Positions 26,154 to 62,394 of a stretch of 64,000 nt of DNA are shown here, piece by piece. Made by a program: the position numbers and the translations under genes. Each line of letters begins with the position of its first letter. Position 1 is the first letter of the stretch. The DNA comes from Gracilimonas sp. Its GTDB lineage: Bacteria > Bacteroidota > Rhodothermia > Balneolales > Balneolaceae. The notes beneath the pieces were generated by a model. That model did not search any database. It worked only from the letters and a program-made list of their open reading frames with translations, and was not told the origin of the DNA. The stretch is taken from contig NZ_JAVJQO010000008.1 in NCBI RefSeq assembly GCF_040218225.1, forward strand, positions 862,186 through 926,185, in the 5' to 3' direction.

Positions 26154-26176
26154 GGGCGTTTTTATTATAATCTGTA

Positions 26177-26488: not shown

Positions 26489-26491
26489 ACC

Positions 26492-28022: not shown

Positions 28023-28107
28023 AATACCCCTTTTTGATTTGTACGCTTCTAAAATAATCTACAATATCAGGATGTCAAATTTTAGGAGTTTGCTTCAAGT
28101 TATCCCC

Positions 28108-29094: not shown

Positions 29095-30018
29095 TTATGC
29101 TTTATTGTAAGCCTGCTCTATAAGATAAATAGCGTATTCAATATCACTGTCAGAATTCACTTTATATTTATAGTCGCCATTACCCCAGTGACCTTTTTCA
29201 CTCATATCCTGTGTTTCCTTTCTTGGATCTTCAAGCTCATCTTTCTTCACATTAATAACGGCGACTACTCCTGAATTGTAGATAATCAGGTCAACAATAG
29301 ACTTATCAATTTTAAACTGAACAGTTTGTGCTAAATACTTGATTTCAATATCGTCTCCTAAATCAAGAATTCGCTCTTTTAATTTATAATAAAGGTCGAT
29401 AGTCTCTTGTGGGCGATTTTCATTCTTGTACAGATGATAATCTTCATTATAGACTTTTACTTCCCTGGAAACAGAATCTACAACCGATCCAGATTTACCG
29501 GAGGAAGTCATTTGAATGCTTGCACTCGACGAAGGTTCATGTTTTTGTAAGCCTATAGTATCGTTCTCGTATTTATGAATTTCCCAAAGTTCAAAGGGTA
29601 CGTCTTTAAAATTCACCGAATGTTTCTGGTATTCAGTAAACCTTGGTGAAATAAATAACACCCGTGATTGCGACCAGTCAATATCATCTCGCTTTAAAAT
29701 CCCATCTTTCGATTCATTGTATTCCAAAATGAATTCAGCCCTGTTATTTAAAAGTAAAGACAGATAAGTGTACCCCTGGTCAATTACTGAAAACTTTTTG
29801 TCGTTTTTATACTCAATAATCACAAAGGAATTAGATTCTTTGTCGTAGCATAGTGTATCAAGCCTGAAGCTTTCCACAGTAAATTCGGACCTTACGTACT
29901 CCAGGTTGAATAAAGTACCGGTATTATTTTCAACCAGCTTTTGTATGTCCTTTTCCAACTTAAAAGGGGAAGAATGTACCCGGACGACACTACCTTCTTT
30001 TATATTAAACAACTTCAT
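29095..30018 (-). CDS. PD-(D/E)XK-like nuclease with DUF5655 domain
   Basis: A 307-residue protein. The N-terminal ~130 residues look like a PD-(D/E)XK nuclease: the acidic residue in FRLDTLCYD, then FVIIEYKND as the E-x-K strand. The C-terminal ~110 residues match DUF5655 (HLYKNENRPQETIDLYYKL, IEIKYLAQTVQFKI, AVINVKKDELEDPR). Such proteins are common beside restriction systems. It follows the large restriction-modification gene in the same direction after ~75 bases, so they are probably one defence locus. A role in cutting or binding DNA is inferred. Confidence 0.75.
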   Translation of the reverse strand: MKLFNIKEGSVVRVHSSPFKLEKDIQKLVENNTGTLFNLEYVRSEFTVESFRLDTLCYDKESNSFVIIEYKNDKKFSVIDQGYTYLSLLLNNRAEFILEYNESKDGILKRDDIDWSQSRVLFISPRFTEYQKHSVNFKDVPFELWEIHKYENDTIGLQKHEPSSSASIQMTSSGKSGSVVDSVSREVKVYNEDYHLYKNENRPQETIDLYYKLKERILDLGDDIEIKYLAQTVQFKIDKSIVDLIIYNSGVVAVINVKKDELEDPRKETQDMSEKGHWGNGDYKYKVNSDSDIEYAIYLIEQAYNKA

Positions 30019-30092
30019 AATTGCTGTTTCTTATTTTAAAATTCAATTCTGGGTCAACCAGAACCACGTATACCTAATGTTCTCTCAAGCTT

Positions 30093-33000: not shown

Positions 33001-33233
33001 TGCTCCACCACCAGGTTATAATTTGGAGAGGGATTTTTGGTATAACCCAATACTTTCACAAACAGGTCATCCAAAAACCCTTCCTGATACGATTCTTCTT
33101 TAGCTTCGCGGATGTTTTGTTGAACTTCGGTATTGTGGAAATGAGCGGTAAAAGCTTCCCAGGCTTGCTCAACCTTCTTTTCATCAATCCCCGACAAATA
33201 TTTATTCAGTACCGCGTTTTGGAATAGTGGCAT
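30093..33233 (-). CDS. single-polypeptide restriction-modification enzyme (Eco57I / type IIG-like)
   Basis: A 1046-residue protein uniting cleavage, methylation and target recognition. N-terminal part: a PD-(D/E)XK nuclease motif, DGALLDGDEVRGVIELKG. Middle: an N6-adenine methyltransferase with SAM motif I DPACGSGAFLNQTL (near residue 435) and catalytic motif IV NPPYVK (near 560). C-terminal ~350 residues: a TaqI/Eco57I-like recognition domain (EPFLQGRDITKY, NSMWIIPTNEISLVGILNS) and a coiled-coil end. All catalytic motifs look intact. No separate methylase is present, as expected for the type. Its recognition site cannot be read. It lies just outside the left end of the island. Confidence 0.9.
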   Translation of the reverse strand: MPLFQNAVLNKYLSGIDEKKVEQAWEAFTAHFHNTEVQQNIREAKEESYQEGFLDDLFVKVLGYTKNPSPNYNLVVEQKNLSDSKKADGALLDGDEVRGVIELKGTETTDLGKVETQAFGYKNKQPDALYVIISNFEKLRFYIDNAVDFIEFNLFTLTKEEFKVLWLCLGYSNFAKGLPKKIKDSSLAEEENVTKKLYKDYSDFKHAVFESIKKHNPEYDKLLLFKKTQKLLDRFLFIFFAEDRNLLPPNSIREIIKQWMDLRDKYDEYVPLYERFKKYFGYMNEGHKGKNHEIFAYNGGLFAEDEVLNDLSIDDDLLYKHATQLSHYDFDSEVDVNILGHIFEHSLNEIEEITAELEGQEVDTSKTRRKKDGVFYTPKYITKYIVENTVGKLCEEKKAELEIVDERFTEAKRRTQKGIDDLKKYRDWLLNLTICDPACGSGAFLNQTLEFLIAEHSYIDELQRKYHGDSLGLSDIETQILESNLFGVDINEESVEIAKLSLWLRTAQKGRKLTSLNNHIKCGNSLIDDPEVAGDKAFDWEEEFPDVFANGGFDVVIGNPPYVKLDTIKETATALKKQGYETFSMRGDLYGIFVEKGFDLLKPEGIYSYIMPNKWLQAGYGKPLRKLFLSKELVQLIDFGDLQIFDGATTYPCIFVARNDQPKSSIDVAVLVTAGEEDFNTIVSSNLETFSVNDFSEKTWVISSKREKEILERINSNAIPMKDFVKGNAKYGLKTGLTKAFLISEKTKNEILEIDPKAKDHIEPFLQGRDITKYSNATVNSYLILFKKGFTKDRLGDCTEEEAWKWLKGEYPGITKWLAPFEEKGKKRTDQGDFWWELRTCDYYEEFEKEKIMYQVLQVKPCFIYDTEGFYCNNSMWIIPTNEISLVGILNSKVGWWLIKQYCTQIRNGYQLIWKYFGQIPIPKKLNGNLKGHVEKIITTNNKLQKHTEKFSNLLLSKFDIEKLSQKLQSWHELTFKQFLKELKKKKVELNLDKEAEWMEYFNQQKAQADDLKSQIAQTDSEIDAMVYELYGLSEEEIGVVEGSAG

Positions 33234-33268
33234 AGATAATATTCTGCTAAAGTAGTTTTAATTAGGGT

Positions 33269-33361
33269 CATTCCTGCGGAGGCAGGAATCTAAATGTCGT
33301 CATAAAATCAAGTCTTGTATTCAATAACACATTTGGATTCCGGGCATGCGCCGCGGAATGA
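33269..33361. repeat. short palindromic repeat, third family
   Basis: Starts GTCATTCCTGCGGAGGCAGG and ends CGCCGCGGAATGAC; the ends are inverted. Only one copy is in the window. It resembles families A and B in its GTCAT.../...ATGAC ends but not inside. Confidence 0.6.
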
Positions 33362-33711
33362 CTTTTTATAACAATTTAAGTTTATCCCTGTATCAAGAAG
33401 CCAAATCCACCCATTGGTCGGACGAGCTTGGAGTCGTCAGACCAAGAGCTTTGGTTTAAATCAATTTAATATCAACGGATTATAGGGAAAGCATCAGTCT
33501 TAGGAAAGCTGATCAAAAACAAAAAAGTCAGTACACACTTTGACTATTCCAACACATAAGCATCGCTGACCAAAATCATAAGCATCAACCAGATGGTTGA
33601 TGCGCAACAATTTGCTGAACGATAAGCATCGTTTGGCAAGCCCACTGGAAAAGCTATTAAAACTGCTTTTTCAGCTATCTGTATGTTCTCAAAAAACGTC
33701 TATGTGAAAAC
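33362..33711. other. intergenic before island, short recurring motif
   Basis: No gene found. ATAAGCATC occurs three times within ~75 bases (33555, 33580, 33620), and an inverted pair GTCGGACGAGCTT / GAGTCGTCAGACC lies near 33417-33445. Role unknown. Confidence 0.35.
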
Positions 33712-33751
33712 AAAAAAAAGCCATCACACTCTTTCGAATATGATGGCTTTT
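33712..33751. terminator. ancestral ssrA terminator, now outside the island
   Basis: AAAAAAAAGCCATCA, loop, TGATGGCTTTT: a stem with an A run on one side and a T run on the other, able to work in both directions. It lies nine bases before the left attachment repeat. Before insertion it would have followed the tmRNA 3' end directly on the minus strand, so I read it as the original ssrA terminator. Confidence 0.7.
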
Positions 33752-33759
33752 GAAGTATA

Positions 33760-33776
33760 AAGTGGAGGTGCGGGGA
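33760..33776. repeat. left attachment site (attL)
   Basis: AAGTGGAGGTGCGGGGA, identical to the 3' end of ssrA at 62378-62394. Similarity stops right after it (ATTCAC versus GTCGAA), as expected when the island brought only a short stretch of the target. Confidence 0.85.
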
Positions 33777-33868
33777 TTCACGGTTCACCCTCGCTATATG
33801 GCCCTGAAAGCCTCATTTCAACTTTTCGAGTCACGAATTTTCATGTTTTTTCACACTTTTTCATGGAA

Positions 33869-33897
33869 TTCGTCTAGTTTTCGTCTTGTTTTTATGG
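33869..33897. repeat. candidate integrase arm-type site, left
   Basis: Two tandem TTCGTCTNG motifs followed by TTTTTATGG. The same layout occurs at 62283-62312 inside the other island end, in the same direction. Sites of this kind inside both ends fit integrase arm binding. Confidence 0.5.
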
Positions 33898-34560
33898 CTT
33901 CAATTCCTTTATCCAATCGACTAAATCCCTATACTTCCATCTCTTACTACCACCTATTATCACAGGGTTAATTATCTCACCTTTCGATAATTTATTCTGA
34001 AAGGTTCCTTTGCTCATTTTTAAATATTCAGCTACTTCATCAGCTGTTAGTAAATCATCAACGGTATACTCAGGTTTAGAATTATCCATCTTACTCCTCT
34101 CAAACAATATGTGTCTAATTCGGGAATCAGTGGGAGAAGTACTAATCAGGCTTTCAATATAAGAGCCTTTTACCTTACGACCCTGAATAACAATGTCTGA
34201 GCTTCCAGTCATATAAAAAGCATAGATCAATCTCCCCATATCAGAAATAAATATATTTTTTAGCATTCCTGAGTCTTCTAAAATCAGATCCTGAAATTCG
34301 TACCCCTTCTCTAATTCTATATATATTGCGGTTGGCTCCTTAATTTTCCTGCTAAACACAAAGTGCCCATGTTTGTCAAAAAATCCTGATAACTCTTTTT
34401 CATCAACTATTTGAGAACCTGATGGATTTTCGCCCCACAATTTATTGATCTCAGCCAACTCAACATTTATATCAACCTGTTCTGGGAATTTTATATGAAG
34501 CAGAAACACACTATCTACGTGATCGCGTATTGAAATTATATGTTTTGCTTGATATATCAT
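33892..34560 (-). CDS. excisionase-like HTH protein with extra N-terminal domain
   Basis: A 222-residue protein. The last ~55 residues are an excisionase/MerR-type winged helix (LLTADEVAEYLKMSKGTFQN, then KRWKYRDLVDWIKEL). The N-terminal ~150 residues are not a known excisionase part; they share a domain with the divergent 34860 gene (FDKHGHFVFSRK here, YDEHGNFSYSRE there, with matching strands after it). Position at the left island end, opposite the integrase, supports a role in excision control. All its Trp codons are TGG and its stop is TAA. The UGA-containing small gene upstream ends 17 bases before it. Confidence 0.7.
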   Translation of the reverse strand: MIYQAKHIISIRDHVDSVFLLHIKFPEQVDINVELAEINKLWGENPSGSQIVDEKELSGFFDKHGHFVFSRKIKEPTAIYIELEKGYEFQDLILEDSGMLKNIFISDMGRLIYAFYMTGSSDIVIQGRKVKGSYIESLISTSPTDSRIRHILFERSKMDNSKPEYTVDDLLTADEVAEYLKMSKGTFQNKLSKGEIINPVIIGGSKRWKYRDLVDWIKELKP

Positions 34561-34577
34561 TTTTAGAAGTTTATATG

Positions 34578-34790
34578 TTAACCGCCTTCATAAATCCTCA
34601 AAATCAACGACTCTGCTTTTTGAGTCTTCTTTGCTGGGAATAGTGATTTCGAGATTCCCGGTTCCGTAATACCCAAATTTCTAACATCTCAGGTAAAACC
34701 ATCTTCAAAATGTATCTCTTCGGGATTTAACTTCACTGAATGTTCAATTAGGAAATCATTATTCCCTCTTTTCAGCACATTTGCTAACAT
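34578..34790 (-). CDS. small protein of unknown function with one in-frame UGA
   Basis: Reading from ATG 34790 gives 70 codons closed by TAA, with a single TGA at codon 34 (context GFT-UGA-DVRN), where Trp would fit. On both sides the sequence reads as ordinary protein (NDFLIEHSVKLNPEEIHFED before, NLGITEPGISKSLF after). It ends 17 bases before the excisionase-like gene and runs the same way. With a standard code it would be a 33-residue peptide or a pseudogene. It shows the same pattern as four longer frames at 36.6-39.9 kb. No family recognised. Confidence 0.5.
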
Positions 34791-34859
34791 TTTATTTGAT
34801 ATTATTACCGACAAATTTGATTATTTTTTTATAAAACGAGCCATAAAATTGCAATTGTA

Positions 34860-35639
34860 ATGAACATTGAGTTAAAACAACATGCGAGAATACAGGGTAA
34901 ATTGAATTCACCTCAATCAGAATTTGAGTATTCAGAAATAGATACTATTGAAAGTATTAACTCACCCTATTATGAATTTAATAAAGATATAGCTGGCATT
35001 GAAAGCTATTTTGACAATTTAAATCTTTATGACGAGCATGGAAACTTTAGCTATTCAAGGGAGAAACCGGGAAAAAGCATCATAGAGTTCCTGATTCCTA
35101 AAGGTTATTGCCTTAAAAAAGTGTTATATGATCACGAACGTATTGACTTCATTTTACTATACAGCTTAAAGTCAGATAAATTACGATATATATTTTATGT
35201 CAAAGAGAAAATGCATGTATATATCACGGCCGTATGCCTAAAGGATCAATATGGAATAATTAATAAAATTAAAAAAGCAGATATTGGGTCTAGATTAAGA
35301 AAAAGGGTTGAGAGTAGTGTAGTCATCAAATTAGCTGATAAAAGGGAGCGATTACGAAAAAATTTCGGGGGGTTTATCCGAGCTATAAAGAAAGGTAAAA
35401 TAACTACTATTCATGACTTTGAGACCGAACTTAAGAAAATCTCAGAGCAATACACTCTTACTAGTCGTTCAAGGACTTATTTGTTTAAACAAAAAACAAA
35501 TAAAATAAATAACACTAAATACTGGACCTATCATCAAGGTAATATGTGTTCTGAGATTGCATATGCATTTGATAAAATGTATCCGGACACCATTACAGAC
35601 TCCTGGATTAAAAAATATTGGAATAGCTTAAAAATATAA
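34860..35639 (+). CDS. unknown protein sharing a domain with the excisionase-like gene
   Basis: A 259-residue protein. Residues ~45-150 resemble the N-terminal domain of the divergent 33892-34560 protein: YDEHGNFSYSREKPGKSII, a GYCLKK strand, then DKLRYIFYVKEKMHVYI and IGSRLRKRVE. The C-terminal ~100 residues are different, basic, and end YWTYHQGNMCSEIAYAFDKM, which may be DNA binding. The two genes diverge from a common region, a layout often seen for regulator pairs. TGG is used for all three Trp. Function unknown. Confidence 0.6.
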   Translation: MNIELKQHARIQGKLNSPQSEFEYSEIDTIESINSPYYEFNKDIAGIESYFDNLNLYDEHGNFSYSREKPGKSIIEFLIPKGYCLKKVLYDHERIDFILLYSLKSDKLRYIFYVKEKMHVYITAVCLKDQYGIINKIKKADIGSRLRKRVESSVVIKLADKRERLRKNFGGFIRAIKKGKITTIHDFETELKKISEQYTLTSRSRTYLFKQKTNKINNTKYWTYHQGNMCSEIAYAFDKMYPDTITDSWIKKYWNSLKI

Positions 35640-35734
35640 TTTGGGATGATCTTTTACCTGTAATCCCAATCCCACAATATAGTTTCCCTATCATTTCCTA
35701 TCAATTAAAACATTAATCCTTTTAATGGAGGAAA

Positions 35735-36151
35735 ATGGAAAAATCCATAAATAATATATCCTATATATCGGAAACTAAAGTCTTTACTCATCATAAAGAC
35801 CCCGAAATAGCAGATCAACACCTAGCTACTATAACTGTCACACATGGTAAGGATAATCCAGGTGATCATTACGACATTATTGAAATGTTCCATTATGATT
35901 TAAAAGAAAAATACCCTGATCAAATTCAGGATATCGATCTTGAAACCCATGATGAAGAGCAGTTGTACTTTATATCTGAACATATAGCGATCGTAGACCG
36001 TGGAGATCAAGTCGAACATATTTACCTAGATGGACGGTATACAGGTAATGACCTGAAGCAAGAACTAAAGAAATGGTCAGCCGCTTTAGAAGAGTTTTAC
36101 TCTAACAAACGCGAAGAGAAGAAACACTCAATTAGCAAAGCAGGAGGCTGA
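35735..36151 (+). CDS. hypothetical acidic protein
   Basis: A 138-residue acidic protein with a beta-type first half (DQHLATITVTHGKDNPGDHY) and a helical C-terminal half (ELKKWSAALEEFYSNKREEK). No family recognised. A GGAGG site lies upstream. It ends in TGA one base before the ATG of the next gene, whose ribosome site (AGGAGG) lies inside its last codons, so the two are translationally linked. If UGA were read through, it would gain only three more residues. Confidence 0.6.
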   Translation: MEKSINNISYISETKVFTHHKDPEIADQHLATITVTHGKDNPGDHYDIIEMFHYDLKEKYPDQIQDIDLETHDEEQLYFISEHIAIVDRGDQVEHIYLDGRYTGNDLKQELKKWSAALEEFYSNKREEKKHSISKAGG

Positions 36152-36152
36152 A

Positions 36153-36509
36153 ATGAATATTAAAATTAGCGGAAAAATTAAAGTATTCAGCCATCTAAGT
36201 AATGGTAAAGGTAGTTTATACTGCGAATCAATCATGACAAGTCCCAAAAAAGACTTAGCTGAACAACTAAAAGAATTAGAGATTATATATATGTACCGTG
36301 TTGGGCAGATGCATGGCTCTATATTTTTTGGTCGTTTGAGACTTACTGATCACAAAACTCAGATACCTAATATTACTGGTCATTTTGAAGCAGTACTGAT
36401 GGCTGATATAGAATCTAGTGGCAAATCAAGTAGACTAATCATTTACAAAAACGAACGTATAAATAAATCTGAGCATAAAAGATTGATGGAGGCAATTGCA
36501 AAAAGCTAA
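36153..36509 (+). CDS. hypothetical protein
   Basis: A 118-residue protein, beta-rich (KISGKIKVFSHLSNGKGSLY, GSIFFGRLRLTDHK) with a short helical end. No family recognised. Second gene of a pair with 35735-36151 and closed by TAA, then a hairpin terminator. Confidence 0.6.
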   Translation: MNIKISGKIKVFSHLSNGKGSLYCESIMTSPKKDLAEQLKELEIIYMYRVGQMHGSIFFGRLRLTDHKTQIPNITGHFEAVLMADIESSGKSSRLIIYKNERINKSEHKRLMEAIAKS

Positions 36510-36547
36510 CCTGATTTATATAAACAACTAAACCTTTCTTAATAAAT

Positions 36548-36583
36548 GAAAAATCTCTGGTACGCGCGCTACTGGAGGTTTTT
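36548..36583 (+). terminator. terminator after the 36153 gene
   Basis: AAAAATCTCTGGTA, loop around GCGCGC, TACTGGAGGTTTTTC. The stem includes G-T pairs but has both an A run and a T run. It separates the small-protein pair from the VapE-type gene. Confidence 0.6.
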
Positions 36584-36662
36584 CATAATTATTCTAAAAT
36601 TCACTTGACTTGTGCTTTATTATATAATAGAATTAATTATAACATATAAACAAAATAAAATT

Positions 36663-37922
36663 ATGAAAAAAAATAATACCGGGTTATGAAGTACTGACCC
36701 CACCAATTTCGGAGCCTCCACTCGTATCCAACAACAGGTCATAATTGACCCCAATGACTTACGAGCTTACCTGAGTCACTTGTACAACTTTCGATATAAT
36801 ACTGTAAAAAGCTATACTGAAATAGAAGAGAACGGTTCATGGAAACAACTCGATGACCGGCGCTTTAACAGCATTTATCAGCAGCATAAAAAAGATGGTG
36901 GTAAAACTACCGAAGCCAATCTTAGGAGCCTGCTGAACTCTGACTTTGTTCCGGAGTATGATCCTATTAAAGAATACTTCACAGGACTTCCTGCTCTTCC
37001 TTCAAAAAACGATTACATAGAAGAACTCGCCAGCGAGGTTAAAACTACCGATCAAGCCTACTGGGAGCTGTGCCTCCGCAAATGACTAGTTGCTACCGTA
37101 GCATGTGCCATGGAGCTACGAACAGTTAATCATACCGTTCTGGTACTCAAAGGAGTTCAAGGATGTGGTAAATCTACCTATCTGGGAAGGTTAATGCCCA
37201 AATCCATCCAAGATTACTATTACTCAGGACAGCTAGACCCCAATAATAAGGACTCCATAATTAATCTAGCGGAATGCCTAATTATTAATGTCGATGAGCT
37301 GGAAGCCCTTACCAAATATAAAGAAGCGGCGCTGAAGGAAATTATCACAAAAACGGATATCAGAGTCCGGCGACCGTATGATAAATTTTCTCAGAACCTC
37401 ATGCGCAGAGCTTCATTTGTCGGAAGCGTAAATATAGACCAGATACTAAGTGATTCCACCGGTTCTCGCCGGTTCTTAATTCATCATGCTCATTCAGTAA
37501 ATTATGAGCATACCATTGATATGGATAAGGTCTGGAAGCAAGCCTACGACCTGTATAAGTCCGGCTTTAAATATTACTTTGACCAAGCTGAGATAAAGCA
37601 GATCAACGAGCGAAACACCGCTTTTGAGATCATAAAGCCTGAAGAAGAGTTGCTCTGGAAGACTTTCAGACCCTATAAAAAAGGGCATGGTGGTGCAATT
37701 AAAAAAACAGCTACCGAAATACTCAAAGAACTGCATGGTGACCGGTTACCGGGTAATGCTCGCGGCGAAGCAATAAAACTAGGATTAGCACTAACGAAAC
37801 TGGGTTTTGAATATATAAAGATCCACAATGTGAAATATTATCTGCTTCGACGACCCAGTTATCATGAAAATAATATAGCAGATACTATGCATGAGACCGA
37901 AAAGGAGAGTAATGACAGGTAA
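36663..37922 (+). CDS. VapE-like ATPase/helicase with two in-frame UGA codons
   Basis: From ATG 36663 one frame of 420 codons runs to TAA, broken only by TGA at 36687 (GL-UGA-STDP) and 37083 (RK-UGA-LVATVACAM). The product is a virulence-associated-E (VapE) type P-loop protein: Walker A LKGVQGCGKSTYL, Walker B-like LIINVDELEAL, then RRPYDKFSQNLMRRASFVGS and SDSTGSRRFL. In VapE relatives the position of the second UGA is commonly an aromatic residue, often Trp (from memory). Four other Trp codons are TGG. VapE proteins act in replication of phage-like islands. With the standard code it is a pseudogene, yet nothing else in it is damaged. Confidence 0.7.
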
Positions 37923-37946
37923 TTCATGAGGTAGTTGGGGGATGTT

Positions 37947-38113
37947 GGGTGGGTACTTACTTGCCCATCTACCCACCCTCGAAATCAGTCCCAATTATAC
38001 CCTGAAGGGGGTTTTTAACCATAGGGTGGGTAGTTATACATCTATATTCATTATAAAAGTATATATCAATAATACTATAGTTTACCCCCTATTTAACTAC
38101 TTACTACCCACCC
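37947..38113. repeat. four 9-base iterons, candidate replication origin
   Basis: GGGTGGGTA at 37947 and 38024 and its complement TACCCACCC at 37970 and 38105: two inverted pairs in 167 bases, in an otherwise A+T-rich, gene-free gap between the VapE-like and primase-like genes. The first pair is 14 bases apart. The spacing and place suit an initiator-binding or origin region for the element. Confidence 0.55.
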
Positions 38114-38143
38114 ATGTAATTTTTAATCAAAAAAGAAACAAAA

Positions 38144-39016
38144 ATGAACATACACCCATTATTTAACACACAGGTCAGTTATCTGCCCCAGTACTGAAAA
38201 CCGCCTAAACCCATCCTCTTGTATGATTGGATCCAGGAATGCAGAATCGGAGAGCAGTTCGGGCATCTGGTGCTGGAATACCGAAAATCCGGTGATAAAA
38301 CTCATAAAATGAACCTGCCTCAACTATGTGCCGGTGCGCTGCTGGAAGGTGGGCATGCAGAGAAGCACATCCTGCGGCGAACCGGCTGGCTAACCTTCGA
38401 TATTGACAAGGACGACAACCCCAGTTTTACTGACTGGACGGAGGTGAGAGAATTTGTTTCTCTGATTCCCTATGTAGCGTTTGCTGGGTTATCCGTTTCC
38501 GGTCATGGCGTCTGGGGGCTCATTCATATCGCTTTTCCGGACAAGCAAAAAGAGCACTTCCAGCAGCTTGACGCTGACTTCAAAGAACTCGGCATCCTCT
38601 TAGATTCTACCAAAGGGAAAAACGCCAATGATAAACGCGCCTATTCCTATGATCCGGATGCATACATTGCTGATGATTTTGAGGTTTACGATCGGCTTCC
38701 TAAGAAACGTATAGTGTTCAAAAAATGTCTTCCCCCTACATCGCATAGCAAAACAAAAGATCTTGTCGAACAAAAGCTCCAGGTTATAGACACCTATAAA
38801 ATTCCTATAGCCCCTGATTATTTTATATACCGGGATATAGGATTTGCGCTGGCTTCTGAGTTTGGGGAAGCTGGGCGAGATTATTTTCACCGGGCAGTCA
38901 AACATCATCATAAATACGATAAGAAACATGCCGACTCTCAGTACACCAAATGCCTGAGGCCTGGACCGATAGGCATCGGCACCTTCTTTCATATTTGCAC
39001 TAAACATAACATCTAA
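38144..39016 (+). CDS. BT4734-like primase N-domain protein with one in-frame UGA
   Basis: From ATG 38144 the frame runs 290 codons to TAA with one TGA at 38195 (LPQY-UGA-KPPKP). The product matches the BT4734-like N-terminal domain found in VapE/primase proteins of Bacteroidota elements: LCAGALLEGGHAEKHI, GWLTFDIDKDDN, LIPYVAFAGLSVSGHGVWGL, KGKNANDKRAYSYDPDAYI. The C-terminal part has LASEFGEAGRDYFHRAVK, typical of the small domain that follows. Four other Trp codons are TGG. A start at TTG 38219, after the UGA, would be an escape but has no good ribosome site. Probably works with the VapE-like protein to start replication. Confidence 0.7.
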
Positions 39017-39027
39017 AATCAATCATT

Positions 39028-39423
39028 ATGAAATATAAAAACACAAAATCATCTCGGCTTCTGGACCAATATGGCGAAGTAGCCATTCAGTCCATCTGAT
39101 ACATGTTCGGCCACCGAAAAACAGCCGAGTACTTTGATACAACAACTTCGGTAATCCGAGGTATCGTTGAAACTAACGGGTGAAAGCGGCCCATCGAATT
39201 CATGCCTATTCTAAAAAAGGCCATTGATAGCGGGAAGCGCGATCCGGAGGAATTCACACATGTAGATTTCTCTGGGGAATTCATCCAAAAACTGATTAAA
39301 AACATTAATACTGAACATAAGAGTGTTCAAATCCAGTCAGAAAACGTCATTGAACTTGCCCTGCACATCCAACAAGAACTTTTTAACAAAAAACAAATAA
39401 AGGAGAAAACCCATGCAAATTAG
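39028..39423 (+). CDS. small DNA-binding-type protein with two in-frame UGA codons
   Basis: From ATG 39028, 12 bases after the primase-like gene, 131 codons run to TAG with TGA at 39097 (QSI-UGA-YMFGH) and 39181 (TNG-UGA-KRPIEF). The N-terminal half reads as a helix-turn-helix-like stretch (YMFGHRKTAEYFDTTTSVIRG); the second half is helical (FSGEFIQKLIKNINTEHKS). No TGG codon occurs, so UGA would be its only Trp codon. Its end overlaps the ATG of the next gene by 11 bases. No family recognised. Confidence 0.6.
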
Positions 39424-39946
39424 CATAGTTAAATTTAAAGTAACCAATAACCGCTGATTACAACGGTCTTACCAATATCAAGAATTAAGTACCCAAGAAT
39501 ATCTGGGGGTATTCTGTACACAGTCTCCCCAGCTTGTAGGGGCGGCGGGTGAGCAAATATCATTGTCACCCTTTTTTAGCTGATACTTGGTTATTGACCG
39601 GGAACATGATGAAAAGCTTGATGGAGACTATCTTCAAGATAGGTTACCGTTAGCAACCCCGTGAGATGTAAAGAAATGTGTAAGCCTAATTAATGACGCT
39701 CACTTCTCAGGGAATGCTGTAAATGGTTCCATTCACAGCAAAAATAAAGCAAGAGGCAATATCATAGCCGCAAATGCTCACATTGATGGCATAGGAGACA
39801 TTGTAATGATCAATAAAGTGCACCTACACTCCTACCGGATTTCGGGAAGTTTGACTGGGAGCCTTAAGATCCATGGCGCTGCATCCATGGGCTGATGTTA
39901 TGCCCATGATGCTGAGGACTTTATGCTGGAATTCCTGCATGTTTAA
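39413..39946 (+). CDS. unknown protein with four in-frame UGA codons
   Basis: From ATG 39413, preceded by AAAGGAG at good distance, 177 codons run to TAA. TGA occurs at 39455 (NNR-UGA-LQRS), 39581 (FFS-UGA-YLVID), 39662 (ATP-UGA-DVKK) and 39893 (SMG-UGA-CYAH). No TGG, TAG, TAA or frameshift is present. The middle reads as normal beta-rich protein (HIDGIGDIVMINKVHLHSY). With the standard code no product longer than ~77 residues would be made. The strong ribosome site and overlap with the previous gene argue that it was recently, or is still, translated. No family recognised. Confidence 0.6.
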
Positions 39947-39948
39947 AT

Positions 39949-39978
39949 AAAAGCCCTCAGAGATGGGGGCTTTTTTTC
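39949..39978 (+). terminator. terminator ending the UGA-containing module
   Basis: AAAGCCCTC, loop AGAGAT, GGGGGCTTTTTTTCTTT immediately after the last UGA-containing gene. A clean rho-independent terminator. Confidence 0.8.
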
Positions 39979-40013
39979 TTTATTTTGGAATGCCTAAACC
40001 TACTCAGATACAC

Positions 40014-40145
40014 TCAATCACCTTTTTTATGCTTATGTTTCTTGAGTGAAGGAGTATTTCCAGGTGTTTTTTTATTGTCCCGCTGACGCCGGTCGGGTTT
40101 ACCGGTAGACTTAGCTATTTTCTTTGGGCCGGGTTTGATTCCCAT
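40014..40145 (-). CDS. 43-residue highly basic protein
   Basis: An ATG at 40145 follows a near-perfect ribosome site (AAAAAAGGAGGCTC). The product starts MGIKPGPKKIAKSTGKPDRR and ends KKHKHKKGD; more than a third of the residues are Lys, Arg or His. It has no hydrophobic core and is probably disordered and nucleic-acid binding. Closed by TGA. The strong ribosome site is the main reason to call it. Similar short Lys/Gly/Pro-rich proteins occur in this phylum; I do not recognise a named family. Confidence 0.6.
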   Translation of the reverse strand: MGIKPGPKKIAKSTGKPDRRQRDNKKTPGNTPSLKKHKHKKGD

Positions 40146-40233
40146 ATGAGCCTCCTTTTTTATGTTATTTGTTCTGCAATTGAAAACGAATTAAAGTCCC
40201 TACTTAGTATTAATGAATGGACTGAACATCTTG

Positions 40234-40659
40234 TCATTCGTCTTCTCCTAGAAAATATATCCTGCTTCTGATCGGGACTCCTTTCGACTTGTAATGATCT
40301 CCTTTCACAAACATCCACGGTTCATCTCGATGTTCTGCTAAAGTAAGAGACACATATAAACCAAATATTTGACCAGCTTTTTCTTGTATCTCTTCTTCTG
40401 GAAATCCCTCCATCAGCCGAGTGCATTCTCTGTATATTGGCATCAATGGAGTATTATCCCATTTGAATTTACTCCCTAACCATCCTGACGGTTGAACTTT
40501 TTCCGTTCTATTCGCAACTTCATCAAATTGACTGCTAATCCAGTTAATTATAGCCTTTTTCTCATCTTCGGAAATACTAGCGGTGTAATGATCCCACTCT
40601 GATTGTAACGATCGAGGTATAGCCTTTACTTCTTTATCTTTTATTGGGTCTTTGAGCAT
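40234..40659 (-). CDS. hypothetical protein
   Basis: A 141-residue soluble protein with a helical first part (SISEDEKKAIINWISSQFDEV) and a compact second part (MFVKGDHYKSKGVPIRSRI). No family recognised. It is ~210 bases downstream of the Argonaute operon on the same strand and might belong to it, but the gap makes this uncertain. Ends in TGA, with only nine more codons to a TAA. Confidence 0.6.
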   Translation of the reverse strand: MLKDPIKDKEVKAIPRSLQSEWDHYTASISEDEKKAIINWISSQFDEVANRTEKVQPSGWLGSKFKWDNTPLMPIYRECTRLMEGFPEEEIQEKAGQIFGLYVSLTLAEHRDEPWMFVKGDHYKSKGVPIRSRIYFLGEDE

Positions 40660-40873
40660 TAGCTTATATAACTAAATGGTGAACAATAGAAACAACTTTT
40701 TTAAAATAGAATTTTTTATAAATAATAAACTTAGCTGAATTAAATGAACATTACTTCTCACCTGTGATTCTAATTGTACCGTACAACGCTGGCTAAGACA
40801 TGCTGATTTTATAACCGTGAGCAAGTTGGAAGTGTTTTTATTTTATGATTTAATCAATAAATATGATTTTAAG

Positions 40874-41749
40874 TTATAGTAATTTCTCTCCTGAAGTTTT
40901 ACCCCAAAATTTATTGATTGCTACCTCTAATGAATGAGTTAATTTCTTCTTATTAGTCAATATTGCCCATATTGAACCAAAAGAAAGCATTGGGCTTACA
41001 ACATATTCAAGCAATGTTTTGTACCAACTTTCATCCATAGATTGGATGGTGGTTATAAACCAATATGAGAAATAAATTGCTACCAGAATTAATGCCACAA
41101 AACATAACCAAAATATAACCTTTGCAATTAGTGAGGATCTGCCAAAAAAATTATTAATAAAGGCTATTTGCATTCTTCTCTTTTCCAAGTCATCAAGCCC
41201 TTTAAGTTTTATCACCGTTTGTAATGACGCTTCTGAGATAACTCTTTCCACTTCCTCAGTTTCAATGCTCTGTTTCTCTTTAGCGATACCATAGGCTTCA
41301 ATCACATCTTGATCTACCAGCTTATCAACGGTTCCTGATAAATCTCTACAAAGAGCTATCAAATGTGCTTGACCAGCATTACTATCATTCAAAAGGAAAT
41401 GGAGTGTTTCAGTATAGTTTTTCTTGTCATCTGCTTGGTTCTTAACCCTCAATACAAAAAGTTGGTTTATCCAATCCTTATTAACATTGAATTTTAATAC
41501 ACCTACAGTTATCACGAATACCAATATATCGTCATATATCCACTGTACATGTTCATCCAGTTTTCTTTGCTTTATTTGTGAGAAAGCATTGTCAAATTTT
41601 GCTTTTTCATTAGCCTGAATAGCGATCATCAGCTTTATAATATGATGCTTGATATCAGAGCTTTTAAATTCATTTTCAATCTTAATTTCTTTTTGAAATA
41701 TGAATTGTTTGAAAGCCTCCCAATAATTTGACTGTAGGATATCAGACAT
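40874..41749 (-). CDS. Argonaute-associated transmembrane protein (bPAM-type effector candidate)
   Basis: A 291-residue protein with a long helical cytoplasmic part and two membrane helices near the C-terminus (VIFWLCFVALILVAIYFSYW and EYVVSPMLSFGSIWAIL). Its ATG directly abuts the TAG of the Argonaute gene, so both are made from one message. Catalytically inactive long-B Argonautes are known with partner effectors of nuclease, Sir2 or transmembrane type; the last act by damaging the membrane when a guide finds invader DNA. Position and topology fit that class. Assignment rests on context rather than on a motif. Confidence 0.7.
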   Translation of the reverse strand: MSDILQSNYWEAFKQFIFQKEIKIENEFKSSDIKHHIIKLMIAIQANEKAKFDNAFSQIKQRKLDEHVQWIYDDILVFVITVGVLKFNVNKDWINQLFVLRVKNQADDKKNYTETLHFLLNDSNAGQAHLIALCRDLSGTVDKLVDQDVIEAYGIAKEKQSIETEEVERVISEASLQTVIKLKGLDDLEKRRMQIAFINNFFGRSSLIAKVIFWLCFVALILVAIYFSYWFITTIQSMDESWYKTLLEYVVSPMLSFGSIWAILTNKKKLTHSLEVAINKFWGKTSGEKLL

Positions 41750-44014
41750 CTATAAAAACCATTTTTTTCTTTTCATCGCTGTTAACAAAGCCGCAGAACT
41801 GAAATCTGGAATACCTTTAAATTGTCCCAGCAATTTTGAAATCATCTTGGCATAAAATAAGGTAACTGGCGTGTGGTTGGGATTTAAAGAGCGCCAAGAA
41901 TGATGGGAAAATTTATATACCTGTTGAGTAATGTGGTGCATGTCTTTAAATGTAGATTCCTCATGTAATTTAATAAGAACTGGCCTACTTGGAGCATGCC
42001 CTTTAAATTTGATTTCATGGGCTCCCATGGTGGTTAATAAACATTCGTTATCATTGATTATCAGATTGGTTCCTCTGAGGGGTACAAAATCTTTATTGAC
42101 CTTACTTCTACCTCTTGAACCGGGTGATTTTTTATCAAAAAGAAGAAAAGGATGGTTATCTACTATTTGTACAAAAGCGAACTGTATGGAAAAATCTTCA
42201 AAACTGTTCACTAACTCTTGAACAACTTGAAGCTCAGTATTCTTCATTGGTTTGAACACATGAAATACAAACCTTACGGTTTGCCCTTTCTTCCAAGCCA
42301 TATCTTCACTCAGTTTATTAACCGAGCTTTTTAGACTTAGCAAAAGTTCATCAAAGAAATTATCGTAATCAGTTGCTTTACTATTATCAGAAAACAATAG
42401 ATTACCGTCACTGGAAAAGAAAGTTGTCAATCCAACTATTCTTTTAGAATCCCCTCCCTTATAATGGCTACTTCTTAGGTAAGTATGGCTAACACCTACT
42501 ATTATTTCCCAATCAACATCATTTGATGATGGTAGAACCCAAGGGATTCCTCCCATCTTTGAATACATTTGTAGTGCAAGAGGAGCTAAAATATATTCAA
42601 GTCCATTGGTATTTCTAGTTCTGTTTTCTTGCAACGCTTGTACAGGAATACCTTGTGATAGCAAAAAGGCCTTAACCCTATAGTAGGGATTATTCTTTTG
42701 GTCTTTGTAGGCATCTCTATTTGTACCTTCTACTACAACAAGATCATACGATTTATTTCCTGCTAGCTTCTCTTTAATTATTTTTAAATAACCTTCATAA
42801 TTATCTTCTTGAATCTCTCCGACATCAAAATTTATATCCTGTAATCTAAATAAGTCTTTCATACCCCTACGATAATACTTACTGTCAGGCATCCCGCCTC
42901 CCAGCATTCCCATAGTTTTAGAAAAACCTCCCCTCGATTCAGGCTTGCAAATAACTAGTATGTTTGGGGTCTTTGGTGTAAAAGAGGTGGAGTCAAAAGG
43001 ACCAAACTCACTAAGCCCTTTTATTATGCTTGTGTTAGCACTTCCTGTTCCATAATCGAATATGAACTTATTCTCTTCTAATGAATAATTATTATGAGGT
43101 AACTCTGAATTTTCAGAGAGAACATATTCAAAACCATCCAAGCTATGGTATCTCCAATTTGAAAGTCGCTTACTTACAACTTTATATAACTTGGTATAAT
43201 ACTGTTTATAGTCGGATTTAAGTCTGCTATTAACTTTTGCTTTGTTAACAATTTGATCTGCTTGGTTTTCACTTAAAAGTTCAACTAGTAATTTCTTAAT
43301 TGATACCGTGCTTCTTCTAATAAAGCATTGTTCAGCATTAATTTGAACTTCGCCTTCATTAGTATCAATAAAAGCGGTTCTGTTTTCAACTTTTGTCAAA
43401 CTTCCTAACAAAGTCTCTTGGGGAGCTAGAATTCCTTTTTTTCCTGGTAATGGGCGTGCGTGGATTATATCAAAACCAATTAGATTAATACCTTTATTCA
43501 TCAATTCAAGAATATTCTCAGAAACATTCCACAGATGGCTGATATTAATTGTAAAGCCATACTTGAGTTGCTTTTTCACTCCGTTTATTGTTCTTAGATC
43601 AATCTCAAACTGTCTATCATATGTTATAATGCCTTTAAGGTTATCAGGTAAAAACTCTCTTACTGCATCATGCAAATCAAGAGGTGATACAAATGAAAAT
43701 GGATAGAAACTTAATGGAACAATATCATCTGTGTTTTCAAGGAAGGCTCTAAAAAAAATGTGCTTTATTAAGGATGAAACTATTTCGGGAGAATTCTCAG
43801 TATCTACAATTACCGTTTCACCCTCAATTTGATCTCCTTTCATCCAAGATCCATATATATAATCACCAGTTCGAAAAAACGAATGTGTGTCATTGTGTTT
43901 ATCCCTTAATTCACGTAATAAAGCTAAAGAGTAAGGGAAAAGTTTAAGCTTTAACTCTTTAGGTGGGAAAAGTTCTATTGGGAAAAAGTTGGTTAGTATT
44001 TTTGTAGATGCCAT
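41750..44014 (-). CDS. long prokaryotic Argonaute, apparently catalytically inactive
   Basis: A 754-residue long Argonaute. The N and PAZ-like region covers the first ~350 residues; the MID region includes VVVEGTNRDAYKDQ and IPVQALQENRTRN; PIWI begins at WEIIVGVSHTYLRSSHYKGG and continues through VRFVFHVFKPMKNTELQV, SIQFAFVQIVDNHPFLLFD and the C-terminal FYAKMISKLLGQF. Active enzymes have Asp in GxDxS and in the HxD region; here these read GVSHT and HVFKP, so the DEDX tetrad is broken. It should bind a guide and target without cutting and hand over to the membrane protein encoded next. Codon use matches neighbouring island genes. Confidence 0.85.
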   Translation of the reverse strand: MASTKILTNFFPIELFPPKELKLKLFPYSLALLRELRDKHNDTHSFFRTGDYIYGSWMKGDQIEGETVIVDTENSPEIVSSLIKHIFFRAFLENTDDIVPLSFYPFSFVSPLDLHDAVREFLPDNLKGIITYDRQFEIDLRTINGVKKQLKYGFTINISHLWNVSENILELMNKGINLIGFDIIHARPLPGKKGILAPQETLLGSLTKVENRTAFIDTNEGEVQINAEQCFIRRSTVSIKKLLVELLSENQADQIVNKAKVNSRLKSDYKQYYTKLYKVVSKRLSNWRYHSLDGFEYVLSENSELPHNNYSLEENKFIFDYGTGSANTSIIKGLSEFGPFDSTSFTPKTPNILVICKPESRGGFSKTMGMLGGGMPDSKYYRRGMKDLFRLQDINFDVGEIQEDNYEGYLKIIKEKLAGNKSYDLVVVEGTNRDAYKDQKNNPYYRVKAFLLSQGIPVQALQENRTRNTNGLEYILAPLALQMYSKMGGIPWVLPSSNDVDWEIIVGVSHTYLRSSHYKGGDSKRIVGLTTFFSSDGNLLFSDNSKATDYDNFFDELLLSLKSSVNKLSEDMAWKKGQTVRFVFHVFKPMKNTELQVVQELVNSFEDFSIQFAFVQIVDNHPFLLFDKKSPGSRGRSKVNKDFVPLRGTNLIINDNECLLTTMGAHEIKFKGHAPSRPVLIKLHEESTFKDMHHITQQVYKFSHHSWRSLNPNHTPVTLFYAKMISKLLGQFKGIPDFSSAALLTAMKRKKWFL

Positions 44015-57441: not shown

Positions 57442-58377
57442 TTAAGTGTTAATGGTAAAACGTCGGGTAGTGGTTTCTTTCAGGAACTGCTTGTAAAGCT
57501 GTGGGTACTCTTTGCGGAAGGTGGTGGTATCTAACCTTCGTTGGGTAGAGTTCTTCCAGCTCAAGAGCTTCCGGCCTGCAAGTGTCATATGCTCAGCATT
57601 CCCTAACTCTTCTTTGAGCAGAAGCTCCAAAGACTCCTTGTGAATTTTATACTCATCCAGACGGTCTCTTACTTTCTGAAGCTGCTGAAAGTATGCATAG
57701 AGACGAGGATTGGCCTCTACGGTTTCTCCTTCATTGGCGTCCGGGTATAAAATGAGTAGGTCTTCATCCGTCATTGCATCAGGCGGGACATCTGCAATCA
57801 CATGATCTTCCCACCATTCAATCACCTTTTGGGTGTTGATGGCGATCAGTTCTTCATTTCGCTCGATGTAGATCGGATCGTGAAACACGCCCGTATCACG
57901 TTCCATGATTTGGAGGTACGCATACTGGTAGCCCGTAAGCATCAGGTAATGTTGGATCTGATATTCCCAGCTAAGTGGATAGGCATTAGGCTCATTACGC
58001 ATTCTGAAGCTTGTAGTACTTTTTATTTCGAGTACACCAGGCCATGGATGCTTCTCAGAGCTTACAATTTGCCTATCAATGTTTCCGAGTAAGAATGAGT
58101 ACTCCTCATGCTCGTAGGGCTCAGAAATATTGCGGACTTTAAGTCCAGTCTTTTCTGTGAATTTTTCCGCGCAGACGGGCTCCAGTATATGACCCATCTC
58201 TGTGATCGGTGTGGAACCTTGCGGCTCTCTACGGCCTGTTTTCAGCAGCCACAGTTGAAAGGGTGTTTGATAGGGACTCTTACCGAGTGCTGCTGCAACT
58301 TCGCTTCCGCCCAGGTATTCTTGGCGGGCATCTACCCACTCTTTAGTGGGGATATTATCTAATAGTTTGGTACTCAT
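57442..58377 (-). CDS. YqaJ-family viral recombinase exonuclease
   Basis: A 311-residue phage-type exonuclease with the lambda-exonuclease/PD-(D/E)XK fold: YLGGSEVAAALGKSPYQTPF, then MGHILEPVCAEKFTEKTG (Glu), LLGNIDRQIV (Asp) and GVLEIKSTTS (ExK). C-terminal ~90 residues are a coiled helical extension. It should resect DNA 5' to 3' for strand annealing together with the binding protein encoded next. Confidence 0.88.
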   Translation of the reverse strand: MSTKLLDNIPTKEWVDARQEYLGGSEVAAALGKSPYQTPFQLWLLKTGRREPQGSTPITEMGHILEPVCAEKFTEKTGLKVRNISEPYEHEEYSFLLGNIDRQIVSSEKHPWPGVLEIKSTTSFRMRNEPNAYPLSWEYQIQHYLMLTGYQYAYLQIMERDTGVFHDPIYIERNEELIAINTQKVIEWWEDHVIADVPPDAMTDEDLLILYPDANEGETVEANPRLYAYFQQLQKVRDRLDEYKIHKESLELLLKEELGNAEHMTLAGRKLLSWKNSTQRRLDTTTFRKEYPQLYKQFLKETTTRRFTINT

Positions 58378-60673: not shown

Positions 60674-61117
60674 ATGCATACCGTAGCAGAGGTATCTCTC
60701 AAATACTCTTCCCAGAAGTCTTATGATGAGATGCCCATCATTACCTCACCAGAAGAAGCCGCCCAGTTTCTCCGTTCCATCTGGGATACCGACACAATTG
60801 AGCTTAGAGAAGAGTTTTATATTGTACTTCTCAGCAATACCAAGCAAGTACTTGGGTATAGTAAAATCTCCACCGGGACAATGACCGGTACCTTAGTTCA
60901 ACCGATCACAGTATTTCAAACTGCGATTCTGGGGAACGCAAACTCAATACTGGTTTGTCACAACCACCCGTCCGGGAATCTCAAAGCATCGGGTGCAGAT
61001 ATTCAGCTTAGCAAGAGGCTCAGAGATGCAGGGAAGCTTTTAGGCATTGAAGTGGTTGATCATATAGTCCTGACAAAAGAGTCATTCACCTCCATTAAAG
61101 AGTGTGGACTTTTTTAA
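60674..61117 (+). CDS. RadC-family JAB-domain protein
   Basis: A 147-residue RadC-type protein that consists of the JAB domain alone: FYIVLLSNTKQVLGYSKIST, then the JAMM motif HNHPSGNLKASGADIQL, and GIEVVDHIVLTKES. It lacks the N-terminal HhH part of chromosomal RadC. Short RadC proteins like this are common on mobile elements; biochemical role not established. Followed by a terminator. Confidence 0.88.
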   Translation: MHTVAEVSLKYSSQKSYDEMPIITSPEEAAQFLRSIWDTDTIELREEFYIVLLSNTKQVLGYSKISTGTMTGTLVQPITVFQTAILGNANSILVCHNHPSGNLKASGADIQLSKRLRDAGKLLGIEVVDHIVLTKESFTSIKECGLF

Positions 61118-61143: not shown

Positions 61144-62250
61144 TTAAACCTCTATCTGCCCTAAAACTTCAGCGTCATCAGATGGACTTAAGTGAGCGTA
61201 AATACGAGTTGTTTCAGATTTACTGTGACCTAAATAAGTCCCAATTTTATATAACTCAACTCCCTTTTGAGCTAACTGTGAAGCAAATGTATGTCTTAAA
61301 GTATGTATAGTTTTATCTTCACTAACCTTTGCTTTCCCAACGGCTCTCTTGAAAGCTCCATAAACGGTGTTAGGATGAAGTTTCATGCCCCTCTTGGAGG
61401 TGAAAACAAAAATGTCATCCTTCCCTTCTTGTTTTCTTAAAATATCAATAGCTTCAACACTCAAAGGAACATTGCGAATAGAAGATTTGGTCTTTGGCTC
61501 CCAAATTAACTCACCGTCTTCCATATATTTCTCAATCGATATTACTTTGTTCTCAAAATCAACGTTATCCCATTTAAGATGGATGAACTCCCCCAATCTT
61601 AATCCTGTAAGAACAAAAAATTTAAAGTAATCCGTATAGAACTTGTCTGAGCATTTCCAAACTTCCTGCAGCTCTGTTTTGGTGAAATACTGCACCTTTA
61701 ATTTTGGATCCGGTTTTTTTGTTTTAATATCAGCTGAAATTTTTCTCTGCATATAACCCTTTCTAATAGCTGTATTTTCAACAGCTTTTAGAAAAACCAA
61801 AAGGTTATTTTTTCTATGGTCTGATTTTGTCCTGCTCTTTAAAGTGTCGGCTAATAACTGAAATTGTGCTTCAGAAATGGTGGCTACATCTTTAAAATGT
61901 TTTTCACCTACATCTTTAATAGCCTCAACAAGATGATACTTGTTCGCACGGTATTTTTTAAGCGTACTTTCTCTAACATTTCTTTTTTTAATCCCCATGT
62001 GAATTTCAATAGCCTGCGTTAGGCTAATACTTTTTCTTCCGGTCGTTATACCTGCCTGATTTAATAGCTCATCAATTTTTTTTGACCTGGCTTGATTTGC
62101 CTGGTTTTTTGTTACAAACCCAATCCTCTCTTTGTACCTCTCTCCGTTTAAATGGTAGTCCAAATAATAAGAATTACCCTTCTTTCTTTTATCGTATCGT
62201 AGTATTACATCTGGAATTTCTCTGCTCACAATATTTAATTTTTGAATCAA
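61144..62250 (-). CDS. int: tyrosine recombinase (island integrase)
   Basis: A 368-residue integrase. A basic N-terminal arm and SAM-like core-binding region (KRNVRESTLKKYRANKYHL, TKSDHRKNNLLVFLKAVENT) precede the catalytic domain: Arg in LTGLRLGEFIHLKW, HTLRHTFASQLAQKG (His, Arg), LGHSKSETTRIYAHL (His and nucleophile Tyr). All six catalytic positions appear intact. It lies ~130 bases from the ssrA target repeat, as expected for a site-specific island integrase using ssrA. Confidence 0.93.
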   Translation of the reverse strand: MIQKLNIVSREIPDVILRYDKRKKGNSYYLDYHLNGERYKERIGFVTKNQANQARSKKIDELLNQAGITTGRKSISLTQAIEIHMGIKKRNVRESTLKKYRANKYHLVEAIKDVGEKHFKDVATISEAQFQLLADTLKSRTKSDHRKNNLLVFLKAVENTAIRKGYMQRKISADIKTKKPDPKLKVQYFTKTELQEVWKCSDKFYTDYFKFFVLTGLRLGEFIHLKWDNVDFENKVISIEKYMEDGELIWEPKTKSSIRNVPLSVEAIDILRKQEGKDDIFVFTSKRGMKLHPNTVYGAFKRAVGKAKVSEDKTIHTLRHTFASQLAQKGVELYKIGTYLGHSKSETTRIYAHLSPSDDAEVLGQIEV

Positions 62251-62377: not shown

Positions 62378-62394
62378 AAGTGGAGGTGCGGGGA
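62378..62394. repeat. right attachment site (attR)
   Basis: AAGTGGAGGTGCGGGGA, the end of ssrA; direct repeat of 33760-33776. Confidence 0.85.

Follow-up and report, generated by a model that had tools for sequence, protein, structure and literature searches.

Why should the replication genes of an integrated element contain in-frame TGA codons in a host where TGA also ends a share of the other genes? This question is raised by a 64,000-nucleotide stretch of a Gracilimonas genome (genome G000, contig C8:862186-926185; family Balneolaceae), which we call the window and which contains a 28.6-kb island integrated at the transfer-messenger RNA (tmRNA) gene and bounded by 17-bp direct repeats. Five reading frames of the island, among them those of a VapE-type helicase and a primase-type protein, are interrupted by TGA. 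Our analysis indicates that UGA very likely encodes tryptophan (Trp) in these module genes; the best reading of the island is a code-locked element, probably a phage satellite. G, L and P numbers denote the genomes, loci and database proteins used in comparisons, respectively, and protein lengths are given in amino acids (aa). The five frames are as follows.

34578..34790, minus strand: short frame of 70 codons with one TGA (34689-34691), the weakest member of the five
36663..37922, plus strand: VapE-type replicative helicase with TGA at codons 9 and 141 and four TGG (Pfam VapE-like_dom, 1.3e-38; phrog_1313, DNA helicase, 3.2e-59)
38144..39016, plus strand: primase-type protein with TGA at codon 18 and four TGG (Pfam PriCT_2, 3.8e-12, and BT4734-like_N, 9.1e-09); the TGA is conserved in the related island L046
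39028..39423, plus strand: 131-aa protein beside the replication gene, with TGA at codons 24 and 52 and no TGG, recognised by its recurrence in the family
39413..39946, plus strand: 177-aa protein with four TGA and no TGG, read as an open reading frame (ORF); the corresponding columns of L046 are TGA, TGG, TGA and TGA

A preliminary description of this DNA had counted 1, 2, 1, 2 and 4 internal TGA codons in these frames, ten in total, with no internal TAA or TAG across about 1,090 codons and with TAA or TAG at the end of all five. These counts were confirmed, the TGA codons lying at 34689-34691 (minus strand), 36687-36689, 37083-37085, 38195-38197, 39097-39099, 39181-39183, 39455-39457, 39581-39583, 39662-39664 and 39893-39895. 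Start codons were assigned mechanically. Module genes were delimited by TAA and TAG only, and their own final stops are no independent evidence. The frame at 34578-34790 had no match in Pfam or PHROG; its single homologous stretch, of 45 aa, is in L046, where the TGA is conserved.

The same description had argued that ten TGA codons exceed chance, and this view is borne out by recurrence: the recoded module was found in 12 of 92 Balneolaceae genomes, carriers being counted as the union of searches with the VapE, 131-aa and helicase-like proteins. Of the 30 matches to these three proteins, 29 contain TGA, and the exception is a 70-aa fragment. VapE gave 9 matches in 8 genomes, with 2, 3, 1, 3, 3, 4, 1, 1 and 2 internal TGA and no TAA or TAG. 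For the 131-aa protein there were 13 matches in 10 genomes, all with 1-6 TGA; a single TAA flagged in two rows is, by its coordinates, the gene's own stop. In G004 and G025 an 827-aa helicase-like protein replaces VapE beside the 131-aa gene. This protein gave 7 full-length matches in 6 of the 92 genomes, with 5, 4, 3, 2, 2, 7 and 1 TGA, and 7 genomes had any match when the fragment, which lies in G050 and has no stop, was counted.

The pattern was not seen in the relatives sampled outside the family. Among 296 genomes sampled from the phylum, 13 of 13 VapE matches had no TGA (one had a TAA). All four outside matches to the 131-aa protein also lacked TGA (one had a TAA). The aligned part was without TGA at 52 of 53 loci from the outside-family genome collection. 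VapE/VirE-type modules of other Bacteroidota elements and phages resemble the island in having homologous proteins and, at L106 and L107, a companion gene related to the 131-aa gene, but they differ from it in having no TGA in the aligned regions, with the exception of L173. Three outside relatives of the 131-aa protein were read: both Trp columns are TGG in L106 and in L107, whereas neither is Trp in L108. In viral contigs, single-protein searches gave no relative of VapE or of the helicase-like protein; alignment gave four, none of them recoded (4/4 without TGA). The exception L173, from Maribacter litopenaei, is a frameshifted VapE gene with one TGA and is apparently an ordinary pseudogene by contrast.

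What does UGA encode in these genes? We aligned the homologues with every TGA masked as X to avoid circularity. At the 19 VapE TGA columns, Trp filled 95 of 224 database cells (42%, against a background of 1.7%; 16 database proteins) and was the commonest residue, followed by Tyr (33) and Phe (19). It was present in 13 of the 19 columns and was the best fit in 10, and in the other module rows it filled 34 of 113 cells (background 1.1%). The second VapE TGA of the window, in the context RK-UGA, corresponded to Trp in every one of the 17 homologues that have a residue at this column (20 were aligned of the 120 listed); across nine loci the codon is TGA in six and TGG in three. At the ten TGA columns of the 131-aa protein, Trp occupied 14 of 63 module cells and 40 of 89 database cells, the latter possibly being code-4 calls themselves. 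At codons 24 and 52 of this gene, each of the nine VapE-type loci has either TGA or TGG (TGA in 9 and 8, respectively), and database homologues have Trp at codon 24 in 12 of 12 and Trp (8) or Phe (4) at codon 52. One column of the helicase-like set is TGA in all six rows that reach it. Database entries for the window's own 131-aa and 177-aa proteins (P0122 and P0135, from a 1,671-base contig) have Trp where the window has TGA, presumably because the gene caller chose code 4 on that contig.

Codon counts separate the module from the genes around it. The 31 module genes contain 97 TGA and 101 TGG. Upstream in these elements, six large genes have 0 TGA and 64 TGG; six selected genes in L050 and L051 (integrase, RepA-like and other) have 0 TGA and 21 TGG, and five AAA genes have 2 TGA and 12 TGG. 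The TGA codons of the AAA genes (L047, L048) and that of the L051 integrase look like true stops, because translation past them would give no more than a short or unrelated extension. The C-termini of the module genes align without TGA and without overshoot. Selenocysteine was considered as the meaning of UGA and was ruled out, because no residue is commoner than Trp in the UGA columns. On these alignments the columns are Trp-like as a set, single sites not. The earlier reading of UGA as Trp is strongly supported by the homologue columns, by a recurrence seen in the family and not in the outside relatives sampled, and by selection on the protein through UGA.

The evidence for selection comes from L046, an island in G024 that is collinear with the island of the window and has att-like repeats at its end matching the tmRNA site. 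Between the two islands the nonsynonymous divergence (dN) was 0.18 for VapE, 0.16 for the primase-type protein, 0.21 for the 131-aa protein and 0.13 for the 177-aa protein; the synonymous divergence (dS) was saturated for VapE and was 2.2, 1.1 and 1.2, respectively, for the other three. The ratio of nonsynonymous to synonymous difference proportions (pN/pS) was 0.19-0.31 over the four UGA genes, and the part of VapE that lies between the two TGA codons is also constrained (pN 0.21, pS 0.86). The UGA-containing proteins are under purifying selection, and their synonymous sites are near saturation. When the same codons were compared, 15 of 17 Trp columns kept their codon and two swapped TGA and TGG; UGA was kept at 8 columns and exchanged with TGG at 2.

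A mutational process favouring TGG to TGA, which had been put forward in the preliminary description, was rejected, because the pattern is ancient, occurs in many carriers and affects particular genes only. The same evidence bears on random decay and assembly error. The genes are interrupted under code 11, and one copy in G044 has a TAG, as decay would allow; against it, the stops are nearly all TGA, they are enriched at Trp columns, they recur in 12 genomes and pN/pS is low. A pseudogene cluster would show relaxed selection, mixed stops and frameshifts, and here, gene ends and that one TAG apart, the stops are TGA. Decay, misassembly or mutation toward TGA is refuted for the family as a whole and is the least probable of the explanations, at next to nothing.

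Could a little readthrough by the ordinary tRNA-Trp(CCA) be sufficient? In this explanation UGA attenuates the replication genes, and traces of full-length product keep the copy number low. UGA is the leakiest stop, Trp is its usual misreading, and replication proteins are needed in small amounts. The placement of UGA in VapE would also fit: with mechanically assigned starts, all nine genes have a TGA among their first 20 codons despite differing N-termini, its excess in the first 30 codons is significant when TGA and TGG labels are shuffled within genes (permutation p = 0.0018), and TGA lies further upstream than TGG (p = 0.002). No such early bias was seen in the helicase-like genes (p = 0.78) or the 131-aa genes (p = 0.41). 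However, the loss would be multiplied by 2-6 UGA in VapE, by 1-7 in the helicase-like gene and by four in the 177-aa gene, and weak readthrough is therefore an unlikely source of these proteins. A leaky context was looked for and not found: there is no constant motif after UGA, the following base being A in 48, G in 23, T in 16 and C in 6 cases, with 36, 28, 20 and 16, respectively, after TGG. We therefore regard low-level readthrough as improbable.

How do the hosts themselves treat UGA? The claim that other genes use TGA as a true stop holds for neighbouring genes, and the gene at 35735-36151 gives no clean proof, as a TAA follows four codons on. Among mechanical code-11 ORFs of at least 150 aa, which are not curated genes, 41 of 145 outside the modules end in TGA, and 13 of 37 in the window. 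Of eight carriers tested, seven had release factor 2 (RF2, prfB) scoring above the cut-off; the remaining one, G045, is 81% complete. The RF2 of G000 has the GGQ and SPF motifs. Thus neither loss of RF2 nor loss of TGA as a stop, as in bacteria that read UGA as Trp, was seen.

The tRNA searches covered set patterns or best candidates, and some of the genomes are incomplete. In G000, at least 36 tRNAs were recovered (RF00005; 150 of 226 first-look candidates scored) and none has the anticodon UCA; among the 36 read there is one tRNA-Trp, with anticodon CCA. ARAGORN found no tRNA in the module loci (L046-L053 and window 33001-40700), so that the own suppressor of a recoded phage was not seen there, and Rfam found none in the window at 33-41 kb or in L048-L051. 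Ten carriers searched with the host tRNA-Trp yielded 30 loci and one tRNA-Trp each in nine genomes, all CCA. Among the listed candidates for a UCA pattern, those with 25-26-base matches gave no tRNA among 12 in G000, 40 in G013, G024, G029 and G032, and 9 of 12 in G044; the rest, including G045 and G087, were not covered. A Trp-type UCA pattern was found in 0 of the 92 family genomes. In viral contigs the same pattern detected 19 loci, and it evidently works, for that stem only, because ARAGORN confirmed a TCA tRNA in 17 of them. A second stem pattern, applied to viral contigs and not to the family, gave four loci, two with a TCA tRNA. The viral contigs L273-L295 carry phage UCA tRNAs, and L277, L279, L286 and L295 are among the loci with a higher mechanical ORF coverage in code 4 than in code 11. 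L279 was considered as a Balneolaceae phage, its UCA tRNA matching the G013 tRNA-Trp at 62 of 73 positions, and was dropped, the tRNA being 84.5% identical to a Cellulophaga phage tRNA-Trp. Between the element loci and the UCA phage loci there were eight weak gene matches, the best with 27% identity at 1e-19. A search for recoded prophages through the terminase family PF03237 gave 5 of the 92 genomes, with no stops inside.

The main rival explanation places the decoder in the host, where conditional reading of UGA would be the trigger of the element; RF2 shortage, a tRNA-Trp changed by editing or modification, or a cryptic tRNA missed by the programs could bring it about. The confinement of recoding to one host family in the searched data would fit such a family trait, and the tRNA-Trp (CCA) of G013 (L211, G013:C3:276-349) seems to have a 4-bp anticodon stem; in E. 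coli, tRNAs of this type reportedly favour readthrough of UGA (PMC13092985). However, 8 of the 9 carrier tRNA-Trp read have the full 5-bp stem, RF2 is present in the carriers, and the share of neighbouring ORFs that stop at TGA means that efficient reading by the host would be costly. A host decoder is unlikely, at roughly one chance in a few.

It could also be supposed that the genes originated in a phage or host with code 4 and are now silent fossils in Balneolaceae, with no present decoder. The searches described above found no decoder, and phages with UCA tRNAs exist. Against this stand the purifying selection seen when the island is compared with the collinear L046, which has its own repeats matching the tmRNA site, the open standard-code integrases that accompany the modules in the window, L050 and L051, and the fact that no recoding was seen in the relatives searched outside the family. 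We consider a fossil origin very improbable.

We therefore favour, with a probability of about 55%, a tmRNA-island replication module in which UGA very likely stands for Trp and whose proteins would depend on a tRNA-Trp(UCA) provided in trans, a UGA-recoded helper phage being its likeliest source. A fuller version, somewhat short of even odds, is that these elements are phage satellites that keep integration and regulation in the host code and replication in the helper code (UGA as Trp), and that wake only with the helper's tRNA-Trp(UCA). The preliminary description had suggested that the module is silent until a suppressor tRNA arrives. The lack of a UCA tRNA in the searches, the presence of RF2 and the early UGA codons agree with this suggestion, and its other half, the decoder or helper itself, was not found. 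Of the readings offered at that time, UGA as Trp is strongly supported, and the supplied suppressor would fit.

The proposed mechanism is as follows. The host would express the integration, regulation and cargo genes in the ordinary code. Between infections, the ribosome would stop at UGA in the first 20 codons of VapE, and the element would be silent. When a tRNA-Trp that reads UGA arrives, the helicase, the primase and the 131-aa protein would be completed, and replication could then start from the iteron region at 37923-38143, a predicted origin. We infer that the decoder comes from the helper of a phage satellite, with the genetic code as a helper-detecting switch, and that induction and packaging follow.

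Several observations weigh against this reading. Pattern-limited searches of elements and hosts gave no decoder tRNA and no helper phage, and we infer the helper from this absence. The sole carrier prophage candidate seen, in G011, has a terminase without stops (on C15, with the helicase-like gene on C41) and is not recoded there, and G025 showed no tRNA-Trp in the search with the host tRNA-Trp. As to the columns, 6 of 19 in VapE and 4 of 9 filled ones in the 131-aa protein have no Trp in the database rows or partly fit another residue better. The first VapE TGA of the window lies in a variable N-terminus, with Trp only in P0002 and other residues elsewhere, and several TGA of the 131-aa gene in L053 are at columns where other rows have Lys or Glu. 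The positions of UGA also vary: the 131-aa genes of G004 and G025 have TGG at both canonical Trp columns and TGA at other codons. Conservation of TGA/TGG relative to Lys, Glu and Gln codons is suggestive only (15/17; Fisher p = 0.058). Finally, the G044 helicase-like copy carries its internal TAG besides TGA, and the 177-aa protein was seen in two islands only.

The remaining parts of the island are listed below.

33760..33776: attL, a 17-bp copy of the tmRNA 3' end marking the element boundary, an exact direct repeat of 62378-62394
33892..34560, minus strand: HTH_17 protein (AlpA/excisionase-like regulator) without internal TGA (Pfam HTH_17, 6.7e-08; phrog_66, excisionase and transcriptional regulator, 4.8e-08)
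34860..35639, plus strand: 259-aa protein without internal TGA, TAA stop, 74% identical in L046
35735..36151, plus strand: 138-aa protein ending at TGA (code 11) or four codons on at TAA (ORF reading)
36153..36509, plus strand: 118-aa protein without any Trp codon (ORF reading)
37923..38143, plus strand: predicted replication origin, direct and inverted repeats GGGTGGGTA/TACCCACCC in a 221-bp gap
40874..44014, minus strand: cargo, class II prokaryotic Argonaute and Aga-like partner, standard code (PADLOC pAgo_II, 2.9e-206, and Aga_Unknown, 1.8e-21; Pfam Piwi)
57442..58377, minus strand: YqaJ-type recombinase, standard code (Pfam YqaJ, 2.2e-28)
60674..61117, plus strand: RadC-like protein, standard code (Pfam RadC, 5.2e-35)
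61144..62250, minus strand: tyrosine integrase adjoining the tmRNA gene, standard code (Pfam Phage_integrase, 1.4e-33)
62378..62394: attR, 17-bp repeat at the tmRNA 3' end (tmRNA gene, 62380-62745)

A second repeat, of 28 bp and 96% identical, lies at 33869-33896 and 62284-62311. The HTH_17 regulator is 90.5% identical to its counterpart in L046, and iteron repeats of a similar kind to those in the predicted origin are also present in L046, L049 and L050. Further cargo in the ordinary code includes a translesion polymerase, SRAP and DUF932 proteins (Pfam). A Pfam scan for phage and relaxase families took in 30 island ORFs. It gave no capsid, portal or terminase family, and no relaxase as a conjugative or mobilizable element would have; one secreted protein overlaps, in its fn3 region, an Ig-like model for tail protein J. 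The island has an integrase and att sites at a conserved gene, an AlpA/Xis-type regulator with its own replication module, and no complete capsid, portal and terminase set, in agreement with phage satellites of the PICI/PICMI kind.

At 52279-55533 of the window, the translesion polymerase (IMS) and an SRAP protein are grouped with two ORFs that had no Pfam match, perhaps as a repair cassette. Just outside attL, 29095-33233 holds a Type IIG restriction-methylase and a DUF5655/HSDR-like gene. Six copies of a repeat of about 125-165 bases lie at 26001-28617, with blastn matches in L046 close to the edge of the island. In L047, L048, L052, L053, L104 and L105, a gene of about 750 aa without internal TGA precedes the recoded module; in most of these loci a tandem AAA ATPase lies next to it, which PADLOC calls IetA-like at L048 and L104.

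How does the island compare with known systems? Recoded phages are generally described as carrying a suppressor tRNA themselves. Those with a recoded stop codon (code 4 and code 15, e.g., crAss-like gut phages) are alike in that a stop is read as an amino acid in one gene set within a standard-code host, and UGA as Trp in a gene module is what homology and selection indicate here. A study of theta-ribozymes described suppressor tRNAs and recoded lysis and structural genes in such phages (PMC10879173). In contrast, the searches made gave no suppressor tRNA in the element or host, and the recoded genes of the island are the replication genes of an integrated element in which the Pfam scan gave no virion structural gene.

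Mycoplasma reads UGA as Trp. Zinderia does so as well (PMC13092985). In such bacteria the whole genome is recoded, whereas here one module is, neighbouring ORFs end in TGA and RF2 is kept. The minimal satellites named PICMI have chromosomal integration, an excision and replication core, AlpA as key regulator, defence cargo and no capsid-remodelling genes (PMC10803314). The island shares the integrated state, excision and replication genes, an AlpA-type regulator and defence cargo with them; the portions of that report on which we draw mention no recoding, and the island, known from its genes, has a presumed helper dependence. Full-text literature searches, judged by titles and the beginnings of abstracts, gave no report of integrated elements or satellites whose replication module is recoded while they lack a decoder themselves. 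Recoded phages are known, and so are satellites, each on their own; their combination without an own decoder was not found reported.

Standard-code gene calling splits the UGA-containing module genes into fragments, and such elements have therefore probably been overlooked elsewhere. In Balneolaceae, a module in a foreign code has been kept in standard-code hosts of several genera over long evolutionary time, with no decoder found. If a helper supplies the decoder, the code would be a helper-sensing switch and a new principle of mobile-element control. If the host supplies it, this would be a bacterial family with a conditional genetic code. Either way, the question of why phages recode becomes testable in a cultivable bacterial group.

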